A stretch of DNA of 53,169 nucleotides, from positions 1 to 53,169 of the forward strand of contig DAIDJO010000085.1 in assembly GCA_027451345.1 (NCBI GenBank), written 5' to 3'. The translations under genes were made by a program, and so were the position numbers. Origin of the DNA: Solirubrobacterales bacterium (lineage in GTDB: Bacteria > Actinomycetota > Thermoleophilia > Solirubrobacterales > Solirubrobacteraceae). The notes under the pieces are model-generated. The model was not told where the DNA came from. It made no database searches and was given only the letters and a program-made list of their open reading frames with translations. Positions 25,451 through 36,895 of this stretch are shown one piece after another (position 1 is the stretch's first letter; each line of letters starts with the position of its first letter).

Positions 25451-27337
25451 ATGAGGATCCACAGACGAAGGGCCCTTGCTCCGCTCTGCGCGAGCTTGCT
25501 CGTGGGGGTGGCCTGCGCCATCGCCCCGAACGTGGCAGGCGCACAGGAGAACACGGGCTACGTGGAGATCTGCAAGACCTTCAACGCCGGTGCCACCGGA
25601 GCTCCGCAATACCAGGGGACGTTCAACTTCAACATCACCGATTCGAGCAACACCACCACGTCGGTCTCGTTGTCGGCGGTGGAGGGCGGTCCCCAGGCGT
25701 GCACGGCACCGATCGCGGTGGCGACCGGCACCGCCACCGTCACCGAGGTGCAGGCGCCGTGGTTCTCGGTGTCCGGCATCTCTGCCACTCCGGGTGATCC
25801 CGGGACCGTCACCCCGTCCGCGACCGACCCCTACACCGCCACGGTGACCGTCAACCCGGCGCCGAGCTGGGGCGACACGTCGATGACGACGACCGTGCAG
25901 TACACCAACGATCCGGTCACCGGTGTCATCGAGGTCTGCAAGCAGGCCGATCCGAACTCGCCGCAGCTGTCCGGGACCTACACGTTCAACGTGACGAGCA
26001 CCGATCAGGGCGTCACGGCCTGGGACTCGAACACGGGTGCGTATGACCTGCCATGGACGACGACCGCCTCGGCGACCATCTCCTCGGCGGGCCTGGGCTG
26101 CAGCGGGCCGATCGTGGTGCCCGCGGGCACCGTCGAGACCGTCGAGCCGGGGACGACGTATGTCACCGACATCACGGCCTCCTCGAACGGCAGCAATCAG
26201 CTCACGAGCTCGGATCTGAACTCGGGAACCGCTGACGCGAGCGTATCCGCCGGTGATACCACCAACCAGACGGTGATCACCTACACAGACGCGCTGTCGG
26301 CGGTGAAGCTGTGCAAGGCCTGGGTCTCGAGCAACGATCCGGTGAACAGCTATCCGTTCACCCTGACCTCGAGCGGACCAGCCGGTCCGACGGCGGTCAC
26401 GGGATCGGTGAGCCTGGCTCCGGGTCAGTGCAGCCTGGTCGGGTTCGTGCGGCCGGGCACGCAGGTGAACATCACGGAGGGTGTCGTCGTCGGGACCAAG
26501 GTCGCGGCGATCGACGTGAGCCCGCAGGCGAATTCGCAGGGCATGAGCCCGATCGTTCCGGGCACCCTCAGCCTCCCCAACCGCACGGTCAGCGTGATCG
26601 CGGGGGCGGGCGAGACGAACGTCACGTTCACCAACGGTCCAGCCGACCCGGGTCAGCTGAAGATCTGCGTGAACCCCATGGATGGGGGAGTGAGCGGTGG
26701 AACGGTGCCGTTCCTGGTGAATGGCACGCAGATGCTCAACGTCAACCTGAGCAGCACGTCGATCCAGTGCACGCTGGACCCATCGGCGTTCGCGTTCAAC
26801 TCGTCCGTCTCGATCTCGGGCGGCGCGCTTCCGGGTCCGGACAGCTACGCCGGAACCGCGACCGTGGTGCCGACGAGCCTCGAGGTGCTCGAGGGCGGCA
26901 TGCCGACGGCGACGAACCAGGCGGCGCTTGTCTCCGCCACCGCGTCGACCGCCACGGTGCTGATGTCGGAGGGCATTGTCACCGAGGTGACGTTCTCGGT
27001 CGATCCGCCGGCACCGATCACGGCGCCGACGGTCACGTCGACCCCGACCGTCGCTCAGGTTGCGGCTGACAGCGTCGGTCTGTCCGTCATCAACGCGGCG
27101 GGGATCAAGAGCTCGACGAGCACGTCCGGCTCGGTTCTCTCCGTGCATCGCACGGTCAAGCCGGCGGTGGTCTCGGCCCTGATCCATCGGCAGGTGTCGC
27201 ACCTCAGGTCGGAGATCAGGCGGCTGGAGAAGCGCTTGGCCTCTCGGCATCTGAGCAAGGCGGCTCGCCGGGCGGACCGCAGGCGTCTCAGCGCCCTGCG
27301 CAGGCAGCTGCCGCGGCTCCTCCGGGAGCTGAAGTAG
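25451..27337 (+). CDS. Secreted four-module beta-rich protein with cationic helical tail
   Basis: I do not recognise a named family. The 628-residue protein starts with a signal peptide: RRR at 5-7, a hydrophobic core at about 8-24 and a probable cleavage after AGA at residue 31. Four tandem modules of about 115 residues follow (37-154, 158-280, 283-395, 401-518). Each opens with a strand ending in Cys (C41, C163, C288, C406), has a second Cys (C84, C217, C327, C440), and three end in a Y/F-T-N/D motif (YTND, YTDA, FTNG). A Ser/Thr/Val linker leads to a strongly basic, helix-forming tail (about 565-628, rich in R, K and L). There is no LPxTG or transmembrane anchor. GGAG lies 6 nt before the ATG, and a strong hairpin follows the stop. 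Confidence 0.8.
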   Translation: MRIHRRRALAPLCASLLVGVACAIAPNVAGAQENTGYVEICKTFNAGATGAPQYQGTFNFNITDSSNTTTSVSLSAVEGGPQACTAPIAVATGTATVTEVQAPWFSVSGISATPGDPGTVTPSATDPYTATVTVNPAPSWGDTSMTTTVQYTNDPVTGVIEVCKQADPNSPQLSGTYTFNVTSTDQGVTAWDSNTGAYDLPWTTTASATISSAGLGCSGPIVVPAGTVETVEPGTTYVTDITASSNGSNQLTSSDLNSGTADASVSAGDTTNQTVITYTDALSAVKLCKAWVSSNDPVNSYPFTLTSSGPAGPTAVTGSVSLAPGQCSLVGFVRPGTQVNITEGVVVGTKVAAIDVSPQANSQGMSPIVPGTLSLPNRTVSVIAGAGETNVTFTNGPADPGQLKICVNPMDGGVSGGTVPFLVNGTQMLNVNLSSTSIQCTLDPSAFAFNSSVSISGGALPGPDSYAGTATVVPTSLEVLEGGMPTATNQAALVSATASTATVLMSEGIVTEVTFSVDPPAPITAPTVTSTPTVAQVAADSVGLSVINAAGIKSSTSTSGSVLSVHRTVKPAVVSALIHRQVSHLRSEIRRLEKRLASRHLSKAARRADRRRLSALRRQLPRLLRELK

Positions 27338-27380
27338 CGGCGGCGCGTCGCAGCGTGAGCTGCGGCGGCTGATAGCGACC

Positions 27381-27410
27381 GGAGGCCGGGGTGCTGACAC
27401 CCCGGCCTCC
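27381..27410 (+). terminator. Perfect 13-bp hairpin after the secreted protein gene
   Basis: GGAGGCCGGGGTG (27381-27393) and CACCCCGGCCTCC (27398-27410) pair exactly around a CTGA loop, 43 nt after the stop. No T-run follows. It also lies downstream of the tRNA-Ala gene on the other strand and could serve both. Confidence 0.75.
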
Positions 27411-27504
27411 GCCGCGTTCACGCGGGTTCAGTCCGGTGACGGGCCGCCGCTCAGGCGGTGGGCGCCAGGCCCAAGCGCCGTCGACCCGGATGCGATCGGT
27501 GAAG

Positions 27505-30449: not shown

Positions 30450-31451
30450 ATGGCGCCCGCCTTCAAGCCCGCCTACCTGATCCACGGTGACGACCACGGC
30501 CGGATCGCGGAGCGCCGCGCCCGTCTGCGCGGTCTGGCCGAGCGCGGCAGCGGCGCCCAGGGCGTCGAGCTCTTCGAGGGCGATCAGGCCACCCCCGACA
30601 CCGTCGCGATGGCGCTGAACGCGATGACGTTCGCGATCGGGCGCCGCTTCCTGATCGTCGACGGCGCCGAGCGCTGGAAGGACCGCGAGATGGATGCGCT
30701 CGAGGCGTCGCTCGCCGCGATCGCCCCGGACACGACCGTCACCTTCTTCGCCCGCGAGGATGGGCGGCTGAAGGCGCCCAAGCGGCTGCATGACGCCGTG
30801 CGCCGCGCCGGGGGCGACATCGCCACCGAGCAGTCGGTGAAGCCGCGGGAGCTGCCGCGGTGGGCGGTCGGGCAGGCTCGGGCGCTCGGCCTCGAGCTCA
30901 CCCCCGACGTGGCCCGCATGCTCGTCGCCCACGTCGGCGAGCGCCAGCAGCGGCTGCTGCGCGAGCTGGAGAAGCTCGCGCTCGAGCTCGACGCGGGCGC
31001 GCCCGACCGGCCCGGGGGCGCCGTCCGCGTCGACGCCGACACGGTGCTCGAGCTGACGGCCGCCTCCGCGGAGCGCCGCGCCTGGGCGCTCGCCGACGCG
31101 GTGCTCTCGGGGCGCGCCGACAACGCCACGCGCGTGCTGCTGCAGATGCGCGCCCAGGGCGAGCGCCTGCCCGGGCTCGTCTATTGGATGAGCGCGCGCC
31201 TGCGCCAGGCGCATCAGATCGCCCGCGCGCTCGAGCGCGGCACCCCCCAGGCGCAGGTGCGCTCGGGTCTGCGCATGCCGCCCTCGGCGGCGGACCGCCT
31301 CATCGCCGACGCGCGGCGGCTCGGCGCCGAGCGCCTCGAGCGGGCGGTCTGCCTGATCGCCGACCTCGAGCTCGCCTCACGGGGCGGCGGACGCGGTGGC
31401 CCCTCCGAGGACACCGCCGCCCTGCTCGCCATCCGCGCCATCGCCGCCTGA
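30450..31451 (+). CDS. holA: DNA polymerase III delta subunit
   Basis: HolA opens the beta clamp in the clamp loader. The 333-residue protein has the three-domain AAA+-like delta layout without a P-loop: PAYLIHGDDHGRIAERRA at the N-terminus, FLIVDGAERWK near 67, and a helical C-terminal collar domain (about 215-333). The position upstream of and antiparallel to rpsT is typical, since holA and rpsT are neighbours across many bacteria. Its last 75 nt overlap, tail to tail, the 3' end of the BLUF gene. Confidence 0.92.
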   Translation: MAPAFKPAYLIHGDDHGRIAERRARLRGLAERGSGAQGVELFEGDQATPDTVAMALNAMTFAIGRRFLIVDGAERWKDREMDALEASLAAIAPDTTVTFFAREDGRLKAPKRLHDAVRRAGGDIATEQSVKPRELPRWAVGQARALGLELTPDVARMLVAHVGERQQRLLRELEKLALELDAGAPDRPGGAVRVDADTVLELTAASAERRAWALADAVLSGRADNATRVLLQMRAQGERLPGLVYWMSARLRQAHQIARALERGTPQAQVRSGLRMPPSAADRLIADARRLGAERLERAVCLIADLELASRGGGRGGPSEDTAALLAIRAIAA

Positions 31452-32330
31452 GGACTCCGCCGGCAGGGGCAGCGGGTCCTCCGGCGCCGGGCGCGGCGTG
31501 ACCCCGGCCGCGGGTGGGCCGCTCAGCTCCACGAGCTCCCGCAGCATCAGCACACTCTGGCGGCCGGCGAGCCATTCGTCGCGCCATGACGGCGCGTCGG
31601 CGGCCTGAAGGAGCGCGAGCCAGCGGCTCGAGAGCGCCGCCGCGTCGTCTCGATCGGCGAGCGCGAGGCGGGCCGCCAGTTCGTCGGCCGCGGTGAGCGC
31701 CCCCTCGCCGGCGATTCCCTTCATCGCCCAGCCGCCGTACAGCCGATGGTCGACGAGCTCCTCGGACAGGATCACCGGATCGGTGTGCCGCGCATCACCC
31801 TCGATCGCGCGGTAGATCGTCCGCACCGCCGGCTCGGGACCCTCGAGGATCTGGGCGAAGAAGCCCTCCCGCAGGCAGAGCGCCCCGGTGATGAGCGAGC
31901 TCGGGTTGCGGCGGTTCGCGGCGGTCAGGATCGAGTCGACGTCCTCCTGGGCGAGCCCGGGCGCCGCCTGGCTGATGTACATCAGCCGCAGCAGCATCTC
32001 CCCGTCCTCGGCTCGTGCTGTGGAGCCGGACACGATGGTCTCCGGGTGCTCGTGGATGAGGAACTCGAGCGTGCGGCCATCCCGTCGGGCGCGCACCACG
32101 CCCTTCCACGCGAACGCGGAGCGGCCGACCTCGAACACCGCATAGGCCGCTTCGCCGTCGCGCAGGCGGGCGCGCAGCCGTGCGCTCGGCGTGATGCGTG
32201 GGGTGAGGGTGGCGAGCTGTCCGCGCATGGAGGCGACGACGCAGTCGACCCACACGAACGGGTCGCCGCCCTGCGAGCCGAGGCTGACCGTGATCGGCAG
32301 GCCCTGTGGTACGTCCTTCACGCGATGCAC
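31377..32330 (-). CDS. BLUF-domain blue-light photoreceptor with N-terminal beta-rich (PilZ-like?) domain
   Basis: Residues 113-205 form a BLUF domain, a flavin-binding light sensor. The residues that contact FAD and drive the photocycle are present at spacings identical to AppA: Tyr118, Asn142, Gln160, Trp201 and Met203 (YIS, RRNPSSLITG, FFAQILEG, WAM), with intervals of 24, 18, 41 and 2. Residues 11-95 form a beta-rich domain that reads like a PilZ fold, but the RxxxR motif is not clear, so c-di-GMP binding is only a possibility. Residues 206-270 are helical and the final 47 low-complexity. The start is GTG 32330, with no Shine-Dalgarno; an in-frame GTG at 32321 is an alternative. The gene lies 61 nt after rpsT and overlaps holA by 75 nt. 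Confidence 0.88.
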   Translation of the reverse strand: MHRVKDVPQGLPITVSLGSQGGDPFVWVDCVVASMRGQLATLTPRITPSARLRARLRDGEAAYAVFEVGRSAFAWKGVVRARRDGRTLEFLIHEHPETIVSGSTARAEDGEMLLRLMYISQAAPGLAQEDVDSILTAANRRNPSSLITGALCLREGFFAQILEGPEPAVRTIYRAIEGDARHTDPVILSEELVDHRLYGGWAMKGIAGEGALTAADELAARLALADRDDAAALSSRWLALLQAADAPSWRDEWLAGRQSVLMLRELVELSGPPAAGVTPRPAPEDPLPLPAESSGGDGADGEQGGGVLGGATASAAP

Positions 32331-34315: not shown

Positions 34316-35875
34316 GTGCTGAGCATGGCGGTTCTCGCTGGACCCTGGCCCCGAGTGGGCGTCGTCGCCGCGGCGCTGCTCGCCGCCGCCGCGATCCTCG
34401 CCCGGCACGACCGTCAGCGGGCGTGGGCGATGCTCGGCGCGCTCGTCCTCGCCCCGGTGCTGCTGCTCGACGACGTCTGGCACTCGCCGCAGCTCAGCTT
34501 CATCCACCACCACTCGCTCGCCACGGTGGTCGGCGCGCTCGCGGTGCTCGCCGTCCTCGCCGCCATCGTCCTCGCCGTCGCCGCCATGTTCGTGGCCCGG
34601 CGTCCACGGATCGTCGCGCCGCTCGCCGCACTCACCCTGCCATTCCGCGTTCCGATCAGCTCCGGCGGCACCACCAACAGCCTGCTCATTCCGCTGTACT
34701 TCGTGATCGCCGCCTCGGCGCTCGGCTGGCTGGTCCCGGTGCTGTGGCGGTCGCGCACGGCCCTCACCCAGCCGCAGGCTCAGCCCCGTCCGCCGGCGCT
34801 GCTCTTCGAGAAGCTGCTCGCCGCGTCGATCGTCCTCTACGCGCTTCAGGCGCTCTACTCGCCCTCCTTCGGTTCCCCGGCGGGCTTCGTGGCGGCGCTC
34901 CAGAACGAGGTCTTCTTCTACATCCCGTTCGCCGTGCTCTTCACCCGCCTGCGCGACATCGAGTGGGATCGGCGGCTGATCCTCCGCTGCCTGGAGATCA
35001 CGGTCGCCCTGGCGATCCTCTTCTCCCTGATCGGCTTCCTCGAGGAGGCCACCCACACGCTGTACTTCCGCTCGAACCTCGTGCTCTCCAACGAGCTGCA
35101 CGAGTACTTCACGATCAACTCCGTCTTCTACGACCCGGACATCTTCGGGCGCTACCTCGCGCTCGTGATGCTGCTCGCCACCACGGTCCTGCTGTATGAC
35201 CGCCGCACCCGGGTGCAGCTGCTCTCCGTCGGCACGCTCGCCGTTCTGTGGACCTGCCTGGTGTTCACCCTGTCGCGCTCGAGCCTGGTCGGCCTCGGCC
35301 TCGGCCTGGCCGTGCTCGCGGCGCTGCGCTGGCGCATCCGTCCCGCGGTCTACGCCGGGGTGGTGATCGCGGGACTGGCCTTGGCCGGGATCGGCGTCGC
35401 CACTCACCCGAGCACGTTCGGGCTGCAGAACGGCAACGTCGCCACGAGCGGCCGTGCCAGCCTGATCACGGGCGGCATCCACCTGTTCGCGCAACGGCCG
35501 TTCTACGGCTACGGCTCGGGCTCGTTCCCGAGCGAGTACACCGTCGCCTACCCCCAGGCCGCACGGATCGTCAAGGACTCACACAACATCCCGATCACCG
35601 TCGGGGTCGAGCAGGGCCTGATCGGCGAGGCGCTCTACGTCGCGCTGGTCCTCAGCATCCTCGTGACGCTCCTGCGGGGGGCGCGGGGCGATCCCTACCG
35701 CGTCGCGATCGCCGTGACCTTCATCGCCCTGCTCCTGCACACGATGCTCTACGCCGATTTCCTCGAGGACCCGATGACCTGGGGCCTGCTCGCCCTCGGC
35801 GGATCGCTCGCCGCTCTCGCCCGGTCCGGTCGGGAGCCCGTGGGCCGCGAGCATCCCGTGCGCGCCGTCGCCTAG
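34316..35875 (+). CDS. O-antigen ligase / polymerase family membrane protein
   Basis: The 519-residue protein has roughly eleven to twelve hydrophobic helices and the Wzy/WaaL-family periplasmic region SGRASLITGGIHLFAQRPFYGYGSGSF and KDSHNIPITVGVEQGLIGEAL. In that family an arginine and a histidine of this region (here the R of GRASL and the H of DSHN) take part in transferring or polymerising undecaprenyl-linked glycans. The acceptor here is unknown; a cell-wall or surface polysaccharide is likely. The GTG start is 8 nt after a -10 element. A glycosyltransferase follows after 9 nt, consistent with a shared pathway. Confidence 0.85.
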   Translation: MLSMAVLAGPWPRVGVVAAALLAAAAILARHDRQRAWAMLGALVLAPVLLLDDVWHSPQLSFIHHHSLATVVGALAVLAVLAAIVLAVAAMFVARRPRIVAPLAALTLPFRVPISSGGTTNSLLIPLYFVIAASALGWLVPVLWRSRTALTQPQAQPRPPALLFEKLLAASIVLYALQALYSPSFGSPAGFVAALQNEVFFYIPFAVLFTRLRDIEWDRRLILRCLEITVALAILFSLIGFLEEATHTLYFRSNLVLSNELHEYFTINSVFYDPDIFGRYLALVMLLATTVLLYDRRTRVQLLSVGTLAVLWTCLVFTLSRSSLVGLGLGLAVLAALRWRIRPAVYAGVVIAGLALAGIGVATHPSTFGLQNGNVATSGRASLITGGIHLFAQRPFYGYGSGSFPSEYTVAYPQAARIVKDSHNIPITVGVEQGLIGEALYVALVLSILVTLLRGARGDPYRVAIAVTFIALLLHTMLYADFLEDPMTWGLLALGGSLAALARSGREPVGREHPVRAVA

Positions 35876-35884
35876 GCGCCGACG

Positions 35885-36895
35885 ATGCGCCGACTGCTGT
35901 TCGTCAAGAGCCGGAGGGCGAGCTTCATCGAGCTCGACCAGCGTCTCCTCGAGGAGCGCTACGACGTCCACGAGCTCTACCAGCCCGGTCGCCTCAGTGA
36001 CCCGCGACAGGTGGTGCGCGAGGTGCTCGCCGCCGACGTCGTCGTCGGCTGGTGGGCGTCCTGGCACACGTTCCTGCCGATCACGCTCGCGTGGCTGCTG
36101 CGCCGGCCGTCGCTGCTCATCGTCGGCGGCTTCGACACCGCGGCCGAGCCGGAGTTCGGCTACGGCTTTCAGCTCGGTGGCCCACGCGCCTGGCTGAGCC
36201 GCCTCACGATGCGCGCCGCCCGGACGCTGATGACCAACTCGGAGTATTCGCGCGCGGAGATCGCCCGCAATGTCGGGATCCCGCCGGACCGGGTCCGCGT
36301 CGTGCATCACGGCGTCCCGGACGTGGCGGCCGCCGGCCCGCTGGCCGGCGGCGTCATCGGTGACCCTGAGCGCCCCGTCGCGGTCACCGTCGGGATCGTC
36401 GACCGGATGAATCTGGAGCGCAAGGGCCTCCGGGCCTTCGTGCAGGCTGCCGAGCACGTGCCGGAGGTCGAGTTCGTGGTGGTCGGCCGCCTCGTCGGCG
36501 ACGCCGGCGTCGAGCTCGCCCGGCTCGCGGGCGGCAACGTCCGTCTCGCGGGGTGGCTCGAGCAGGAGGAGCTCGAGGCCCTGCTGCGCCGCGCCCGGGT
36601 GTACGTGCAGGCCTCCCGGCACGAGGGGTTCGGCGTGTCGGTCGCCGAGGCGATGCTCGCCCGCTGCGTGCCGGTCGTCACGCGCGCCGGCGCCCTGCCG
36701 GAGGTCGTCGGCGATACGGGGGTTCTGCTCGACGAGCCGAGCCCGCGGGCGGTGGCCCTGGGCGTGCGCGAGGCGCTCCATCTCGACCTCGGAGAGGCGG
36801 CCCGCCGGCGGGTGCTCGAGCGCTTCAGCGTCGCCCAGCGCCGCGCCGGCCTCGTCGCGCTGCTCGATGAGCTGCTGCCGCCTACTCTTGACTAG
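35885..36895 (+). CDS. Glycosyltransferase family 4 protein
   Basis: This GT-B-fold glycosyltransferase of 336 residues probably adds a sugar to a lipid-linked glycan. The C-terminal nucleotide-sugar site is seen as HEGFGVSVAEAMLARCVPVV, including the EX7E motif of GT4 enzymes, and ERKGLRAFVQAAEHV carries the typical K after the hinge. The N-terminal half has no signal peptide and is less conserved. The sugar donor and acceptor cannot be read from sequence. It sits between the ligase-like gene and lepA, and its stop TAG lies within the lepA promoter region. Confidence 0.85.
   Translation: MRRLLFVKSRRASFIELDQRLLEERYDVHELYQPGRLSDPRQVVREVLAADVVVGWWASWHTFLPITLAWLLRRPSLLIVGGFDTAAEPEFGYGFQLGGPRAWLSRLTMRAARTLMTNSEYSRAEIARNVGIPPDRVRVVHHGVPDVAAAGPLAGGVIGDPERPVAVTVGIVDRMNLERKGLRAFVQAAEHVPEVEFVVVGRLVGDAGVELARLAGGNVRLAGWLEQEELEALLRRARVYVQASRHEGFGVSVAEAMLARCVPVVTRAGALPEVVGDTGVLLDEPSPRAVALGVREALHLDLGEAARRRVLERFSVAQRRAGLVALLDELLPPTLD
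36883..36888 (+). promoter_or_regulatory. -10 element TACTCT for lepA, leaderless type
   Basis: TACTCT lies inside the last codons of the glycosyltransferase gene and ends 10 nt before the lepA ATG. Confidence 0.4.

Follow-up and report, generated by a model that had tools for sequence, protein, structure and literature searches.

Positions 25451 to 27337 of a contig from a Solirubrobacterales bacterium (DAIDJO010000085.1, assembly GCA_027451345.1) hold a gene for a protein of four repeated modules with a strongly basic C-terminal tail; the whole stretch of DNA analysed, 53,169 nucleotides long, is called the window here. It is proposed, with a probability of about 0.55, that this protein forms a fibrillar stalk that is exported and built from four CnaB-like domains, all carrying a disulfide and the first three also an isopeptide bond, whose basic tail holds it on an anionic surface polymer; such a stalk might act as an adhesin or in an extracellular matrix. 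After export, the first-strand Cys of each domain would pair in a disulfide with the Cys that immediately precedes a 'PxxVPAGT' stretch. Modules 1-3 would also form an autocatalytic isopeptide bond, in which the Lys next to the first Cys reacts, aided by a Glu, with the last-strand Asn or Asp; module 4 would have lost this chemistry while retaining its disulfide. The resulting rugged rod would be continued by a flexible linker and by the basic C-terminal module, held electrostatically on the polymer, and this tail would be a sortase-free counterpart of LPXTG anchoring.

The open reading frame is a real gene, because its codon-position G+C bias runs to its end (third-position G+C 0.87-0.93 throughout and 0.92 across the final 60 codons) and ten relatives have the four-module layout. 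Its parts, with the cleavage site assigned by eye, are the following:

25451-27337 (+): open reading frame, 628 amino acids, ATG start preceded by aggagag
25451..25543 (+): signal peptide, residues 1-31, likely signal peptidase I site AGA|Q, no lipobox, read from the sequence
25553..25915 (+): module 1, residues 35-155, CnaB-like, C41/C84, triad K42, E99, N153
25919..26290 (+): module 2, residues 157-280, C163/C217, triad K164, E232, D280
26294..26644 (+): module 3, residues 282-398, C288/C327, triad K289, E343, N395
26648..27007 (+): module 4, residues 400-519, C406/C440 retained, triad lost (V, G, V), profile match of 59.6 bits
27008..27160 (+): low-complexity Pro/Thr/Ser/Ala linker, residues 520-570, pLDDT below 50 for 524-570
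27161..27334 (+): basic helical-hairpin tail, residues 571-628 (AlphaFold2 helices 571-596 and 603-627)

An earlier note on this DNA had described an exported protein of four diverged modules, each with one pair of Cys 34-54 residues apart and three with a YTND-like end, and this description has held up: the signal peptide is present, the spacings are 43, 54, 39 and 34, and the modules end in YTN, YTD, FTN and, in the fourth, FSV. Both Cys are kept in all 36 modules of a module alignment of nine proteins, that of the window included, and in 40/40 once four modules from two Acidobacteria-type records are added (two further proteins, L090 and L091, stand outside this set). Of the eight module-Cys columns of the full-length alignment, seven show no variation; the eighth, 440, is misaligned there but invariant in a six-row alignment. 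Cys 13 and Cys 22, which lie in the signal peptide, lack conservation. Since every one of the 40 modules has two Cys and the protein is exported, one disulfide in each module is likely. The combination of disulfide and isopeptide bond is already known, since disulfides are reported to accompany isopeptide bonds in 41.3% of the isopeptide domains of Actinomycetota and 79.2% of those of Acidobacteriota (PMC12617251).

In CnaB domains, a first-strand Lys bonds a last-strand Asn or Asp, with a Glu assisting (PMC12617251). The corresponding sites in the modules are the Lys right after the first Cys, a Glu in the central 'VTE' strand and the Asn or Asp of the terminal 'YTN' or 'YTD', and modules 1-3 of the window protein possess all three, module 4 none. 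The Lys is found in 33 of the 40 aligned modules, and Glu and Asn/Asp accompany it in 33/33; the seven modules devoid of Lys all lack the Glu, four of them also lack the Asn/Asp, and all seven keep both Cys. L090 and L091 have Lys and Glu in their four modules. In an unrooted tree of 11 proteins, which contains two long branches, Lys-less modules appear at three places: in the group of the window protein (support 100/100), in P0008 and P0009, next to P0007, which is intact (100/99), and in P0006, next to P0005, also intact but with a support of only 80/66. A naive Fisher value, which takes no account of kinship, is disregarded. Taken together, these patterns are good evidence that Lys and Glu would work jointly, and modules 1-3 probably carry a self-made isopeptide bond.

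In models, the modules adopt the transthyretin/CnaB beta-sandwich and are thus predicted to be CnaB-like, their nearest folds in structure comparison being pilins and adhesins. The earlier note had not recognised the architecture; it remains true that no named family in Pfam or NCBIfam scans matches it in full, although the CnaB-like nature of the modules and the triad of modules 1-3 had been missed. The best structural match is isopeptide domain 47I of the giant adhesin of Mobiluncus mulieris (PDB 5u5o/5u6f; PMC10619420), likewise a CnaB-type domain with isopeptide and disulfide. Unlike the window protein, this adhesin has 7651 residues, an LPxTG motif and also ester-bond domains, and the disulfide of 47I joins Cys 45 and 53 residues past the Lys, whereas the window modules use the residue before it. 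The N-domain of FimP from Actinomyces oris shares the CnaB fold, the full residue set and a disulfide Cys next to the Lys; however, this Cys follows the Lys, no isopeptide was observed, and FimP is a sortase-assembled LPXTG pilin (PMC3485203). The modules also resemble Pfam SpaA_4 (PF24514, a prealbumin-like domain), whose profile aligns with theirs along the full module length and agrees at Lys, Glu and Asn. SpaA_4 is common in the same bacterial family (27/146 genomes, 26 of them above the cut-off), but its conserved Cys are placed differently, past the Glu strand and within the last strand. Thus, a Cys immediately before the Lys sets the modules apart from these three cases. RrgB, the pneumococcal major pilin, is likewise built of four CnaB domains and has the bond in three of them, but the exception is the first domain rather than the last and RrgB is a sortase polymer (PMC3132780); in the window protein the bonding is a prediction.

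At Pfam cut-offs, neither SpaA_4 nor SpaA_2 or SpaA_3 was matched in the window protein (E up to 10) or in ten four-module relatives (E 0.1). General Pfam scans gave no thioester or ester cross-link domains of the kind found in TIE adhesins, no search aimed at them having been made. Several candidates were dismissed: DUF6252 and GLEYA (Pfam, window protein), A2M_BRD (Pfam, L091) and NCBIfam matches with E 0.0015-0.09 (window protein, P0002, P0006 and L091), all below cut-off, as well as chance or weak hits in the Protein Data Bank (PDB), namely an amidase (E 0.46) by sequence and cadherins (0.012 and 0.051) and the pilin PitB (0.16) with the module profile. No title or abstract beginning in the literature searched describes the architecture, which is no proof of its being unpublished.

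The tail is the part on which retention at the surface would depend. As the earlier note had pointed out, about 60 residues at the end are rich in Arg and Lys: the last 60 contain 15 Arg, 4 Lys and 11 Leu, and AlphaFold2 places helices there. The same note would have given up its interpretation if the tail were untranslated; against this speak the codon bias at the gene end and the presence of the tail in frame in three orthologues of about 60% identity, where it evolves faster than the modules (pN 0.37-0.49 vs 0.19-0.24). A heptad-like leucine pattern, also suggested there, finds modest support, since the helical moment of the two tail helices is equalled or exceeded by 320 and 98 of 5000 shuffles, respectively. 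In nine of nine proteins the net charge of the body (residues 31 to -130) is 0 to -27 and that of the last 70 residues +10 to +20. Arg/Lys-rich, helical-looking tails occur in 7/10 complete proteins, helices having been modelled for the window protein alone, and those of three distant proteins align poorly with the window tail (17-28%).

P0005, P0006 and L091 (4575-6782, - strand) have a different basic, beta-looking domain in the tail position. This domain also terminates seven further proteins (L029, L030, L099, L100 and L108, of one kind, together with L101 and L107) and likewise makes up the last ~70 residues in L005 and L006; L029, L030 and L040 are real proteins ending in it. The final 70 residues of these seven include 14-24 basic and 0-5 acidic ones. 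A signal-peptide-like start is seen in L099, L100 and L101, the other four of the seven being visible in part only. The domain has no Pfam or NCBIfam match in P0005, P0006, L091, L099, L100 and L101, and it is rare, appearing in 7/399 sampled genomes of the class with one copy each. The helical tail occurs once in its own genome and is therefore no general sorting signal there. The exchange of one basic module for another, unrelated in sequence, indicates that charge and position matter, and this fits retention on an anionic surface. Two matches to the C-terminus only were set aside: L007, a non-coding-looking Arg-rich frame with third-position G+C of 0.59, and L041, a sigma-factor-like protein with an Arg-rich stretch. 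In the L041 frame (- strand, from position 1), a long region of Gly and Ala is accompanied by a helical-looking stretch extremely rich in Arg, Lys and Glu.

Conventional anchors were searched for, and the absence of LPxTG, lipobox or transmembrane anchor asserted in the earlier note is confirmed for the window protein, which has no strongly hydrophobic segment past its signal peptide. Using the motif set of PMC12617251, none of the 11 proteins has a sorting motif in its last 50 residues (L090 lacks its C-terminus) or a strongly hydrophobic C-terminal segment; motif-like matches away from the C-terminus, in four of the 11, are judged to be chance. No lipobox lies in the first 60 residues of any of them (counted, for L090 and L091, in the frame and not from a chosen start). 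No sortase match was obtained in the own genome, which is 85% complete, or in three of the five other gene-bearing genomes of the genus.

Some observations weigh against the proposal. Foldseek E-values for single modules are weak, 0.014 at best. The Lys-less modules have diverged generally: out of 15 further conserved columns, six are kept in 7/7, both Cys included, and nine drop (one to 6/7, one to 5/7, three to 3/7, two to 2/7, one to 1/7 and one to 0/7); the Gly of column 95, found in 0/7, is also changed in Lys-bearing fourth modules. A complete triad can stay unbonded, as in the FimP N-domain, whose crystal has a disulfide and a Cys directly after the Lys without an isopeptide (PMC3485203). 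This case, with the divergence of module 4 at other columns, would suit domains cross-linked by disulfides alone, the triad being a structural relic that never forms an isopeptide. Such a reading is rather unlikely, as Lys and Glu have been lost together three times on the tree, which reactive coupling predicts, and every one of the 33 Lys-bearing modules has Asn or Asp, either of which can react in CnaB domains (PMC12617251), at the last-strand site. Sortase is present in two of the six gene-bearing genomes of the genus, and the comparison of gene carriers (match lacking in 4/6) with the other genomes (5/22), based on incomplete genomes, shows no clear separation. Together with the closeness of the folds to pilins and adhesins and the RrgB precedent of four CnaB domains with one unbonded (PMC3132780), the sortase of those two genomes would be the case for a pilin subunit that sortase links into fibres; given the missing sorting motifs, hydrophobic C-terminal segments and sortase matches described above, we consider it very improbable.

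Basic composition is by itself no demonstration of anchoring; the tail could bind DNA or dimerise, and its sequence evolves fast. The same stalk might thus capture extracellular DNA or another matrix polyanion, acting as a crosslinker of the biofilm matrix rather than being anchored to the wall. Its Arg/Lys-rich, highly positive C-terminus would agree with this, as would the position of two relatives next to an apparently secreted GH114 enzyme (secretion judged by eye), of a family that includes endo-alpha-1,4-galactosaminidases (PMC12054363). However, no DNA-binding family was matched in Pfam or NCBIfam scans, charge is conserved whereas residues diverge, and the presence of the exchanged beta-looking domain at the end of several unrelated proteins is easier to explain by a common location than by a single ligand; this alternative is unlikely, if to be taken seriously. 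That the C-terminal hairpin is instead an oligomerisation device, pairing or bundling stalks with an incidental charge, seems doubtful: the predicted helices have modest amphipathicity, but their moments are weakly above shuffles, the very high positive charge would oppose self-association, and three relatives end in another C-terminal domain.

Taking the surface-held stalk as the preferred reading, a broader and more tentative proposal, which we regard as possible without favouring it, is a sortase-free mode of display, in which isopeptide- and disulfide-bonded CnaB stalks would be retained on the surface by basic C-terminal modules that can replace one another, namely a helical hairpin and the apparently unnamed beta-looking domain of ~70 residues. 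The Cys directly before the reactive Lys would then make for a kind of combined cross-link that the literature examined, in the portions available, does not describe.

The module type is scarce, yet it extends beyond one genus, because its profile matches in 8/399 sampled genomes of the class and there are carriers in another family and in Acidobacteria-type records. Full matches were found in 6 of 146 genomes of the bacterial family, all of one genus, the own genome included (tallies of seven and eight include C-terminal-only matches); a survey of 232 genomes of the order returned the same six, and two more whose match is confined to the C-terminal region. Scanning of contigs yielded none with a single-protein query and ten loci with an alignment query. 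The distant four-module proteins L017, L018 and L021 are 35-38% identical, and records labelled Acidobacteriaceae and Bryobacterales have proteins of two modules each. In the Bryobacterales-labelled metagenome-assembled genome, two such genes lie in tandem (L023 4643-6322 and 6459-8459), with near-identical C-terminal halves and differing N-terminal parts. The profile search added L090 and L091, four-module proteins each from its own genome in another family (L091 has its fourth module assigned by reading the sequence), and the single-module L092, below cut-off against SpaA_4 (E 1.7e-4).

Upstream of the window gene lie an AIM24-family gene and one without family assignment, and a tRNA-Ala follows on the opposite strand. 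The tail had also been tentatively linked to surface polysaccharide made by the genes at 34316-36895, which encode a Wzy_C-type ligase and a GT4 glycosyltransferase. This link is not sustained: a tRNA, a gene we take to be leuS, a DNA polymerase III delta gene and murJ stand in between, and neither family appears among 25 flanking genes scanned around ten relatives, whose flanks are partly covered. Among the housekeeping genes there is a BLUF blue-light sensor gene at 31380-32330 (-) (E 2.6e-25). Features near the gene and its relatives are:

27380..27411 (+): strong 14-bp hairpin 3' of the window gene, no T run after it
L008 1618-2481, L009 9295-10335, L010 7198-8001, L011 2355-3035, L012 381-1061: upstream LuxR-family regulators
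L018 7898-8986, L021 7970-9088: GH114 glycoside hydrolases, starting 37 and 7 bases past the stop of the four-module gene, respectively

The hairpin is a possible transcription end; the RNA fold z is -6.4 over 27345-27430, a region that also contains a second hairpin. A LuxR-family regulator lies directly upstream in five of ten relatives, which are the five other gene-bearing genomes of the genus; three of the five have a receiver-like part (Pfam), and their identity is 42-47% in nine of ten pairs and 90% in one. None adjoins the window gene, and the pairing is unproven for it because LuxR matches in its own genome are distant (28-31% identity over most of the length, 42% over a 59-residue stretch). 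In L008 the gene preceding the regulator (1-1314) has an IG_AIR9 domain match (E 1.2e-6). In L011 and L012, gene and regulator seem to lie within a ribosomal-protein/RNA-polymerase region: L10 stands upstream in L011, and in L012 two very large open reading frames further downstream are presumably rpoB and rpoC, judging by size. L018 and L021 have a BTAD-type regulator ~0.4 and ~1 kb upstream, respectively, and the GH114 gene, with a nucleotidyltransferase or epimerase gene of nucleotide-sugar type upstream, favours some carbohydrate link in these two of the ten relatives. L017, L090 and L091 have neither arrangement as far as contigs and scans extend, and no GH114, BTAD or LuxR neighbour exists at the window gene, so that regulation and a polysaccharide link are hints from relatives and no facts for it.

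In sum, these findings would widen the range of CnaB stalks with covalent locking to include uncultured actinobacteria, in a protein that has no sorting signal, and they put forward charge-based, swappable C-terminal modules as a candidate means of retaining stalks at the surface. Neighbouring disulfide and isopeptide bonds may make the domains exceptionally robust, which could benefit peptide-tag ligation tools, and module 4, with its joint loss of Lys and Glu, would provide a natural control for what the isopeptide contributes on top of the disulfide.
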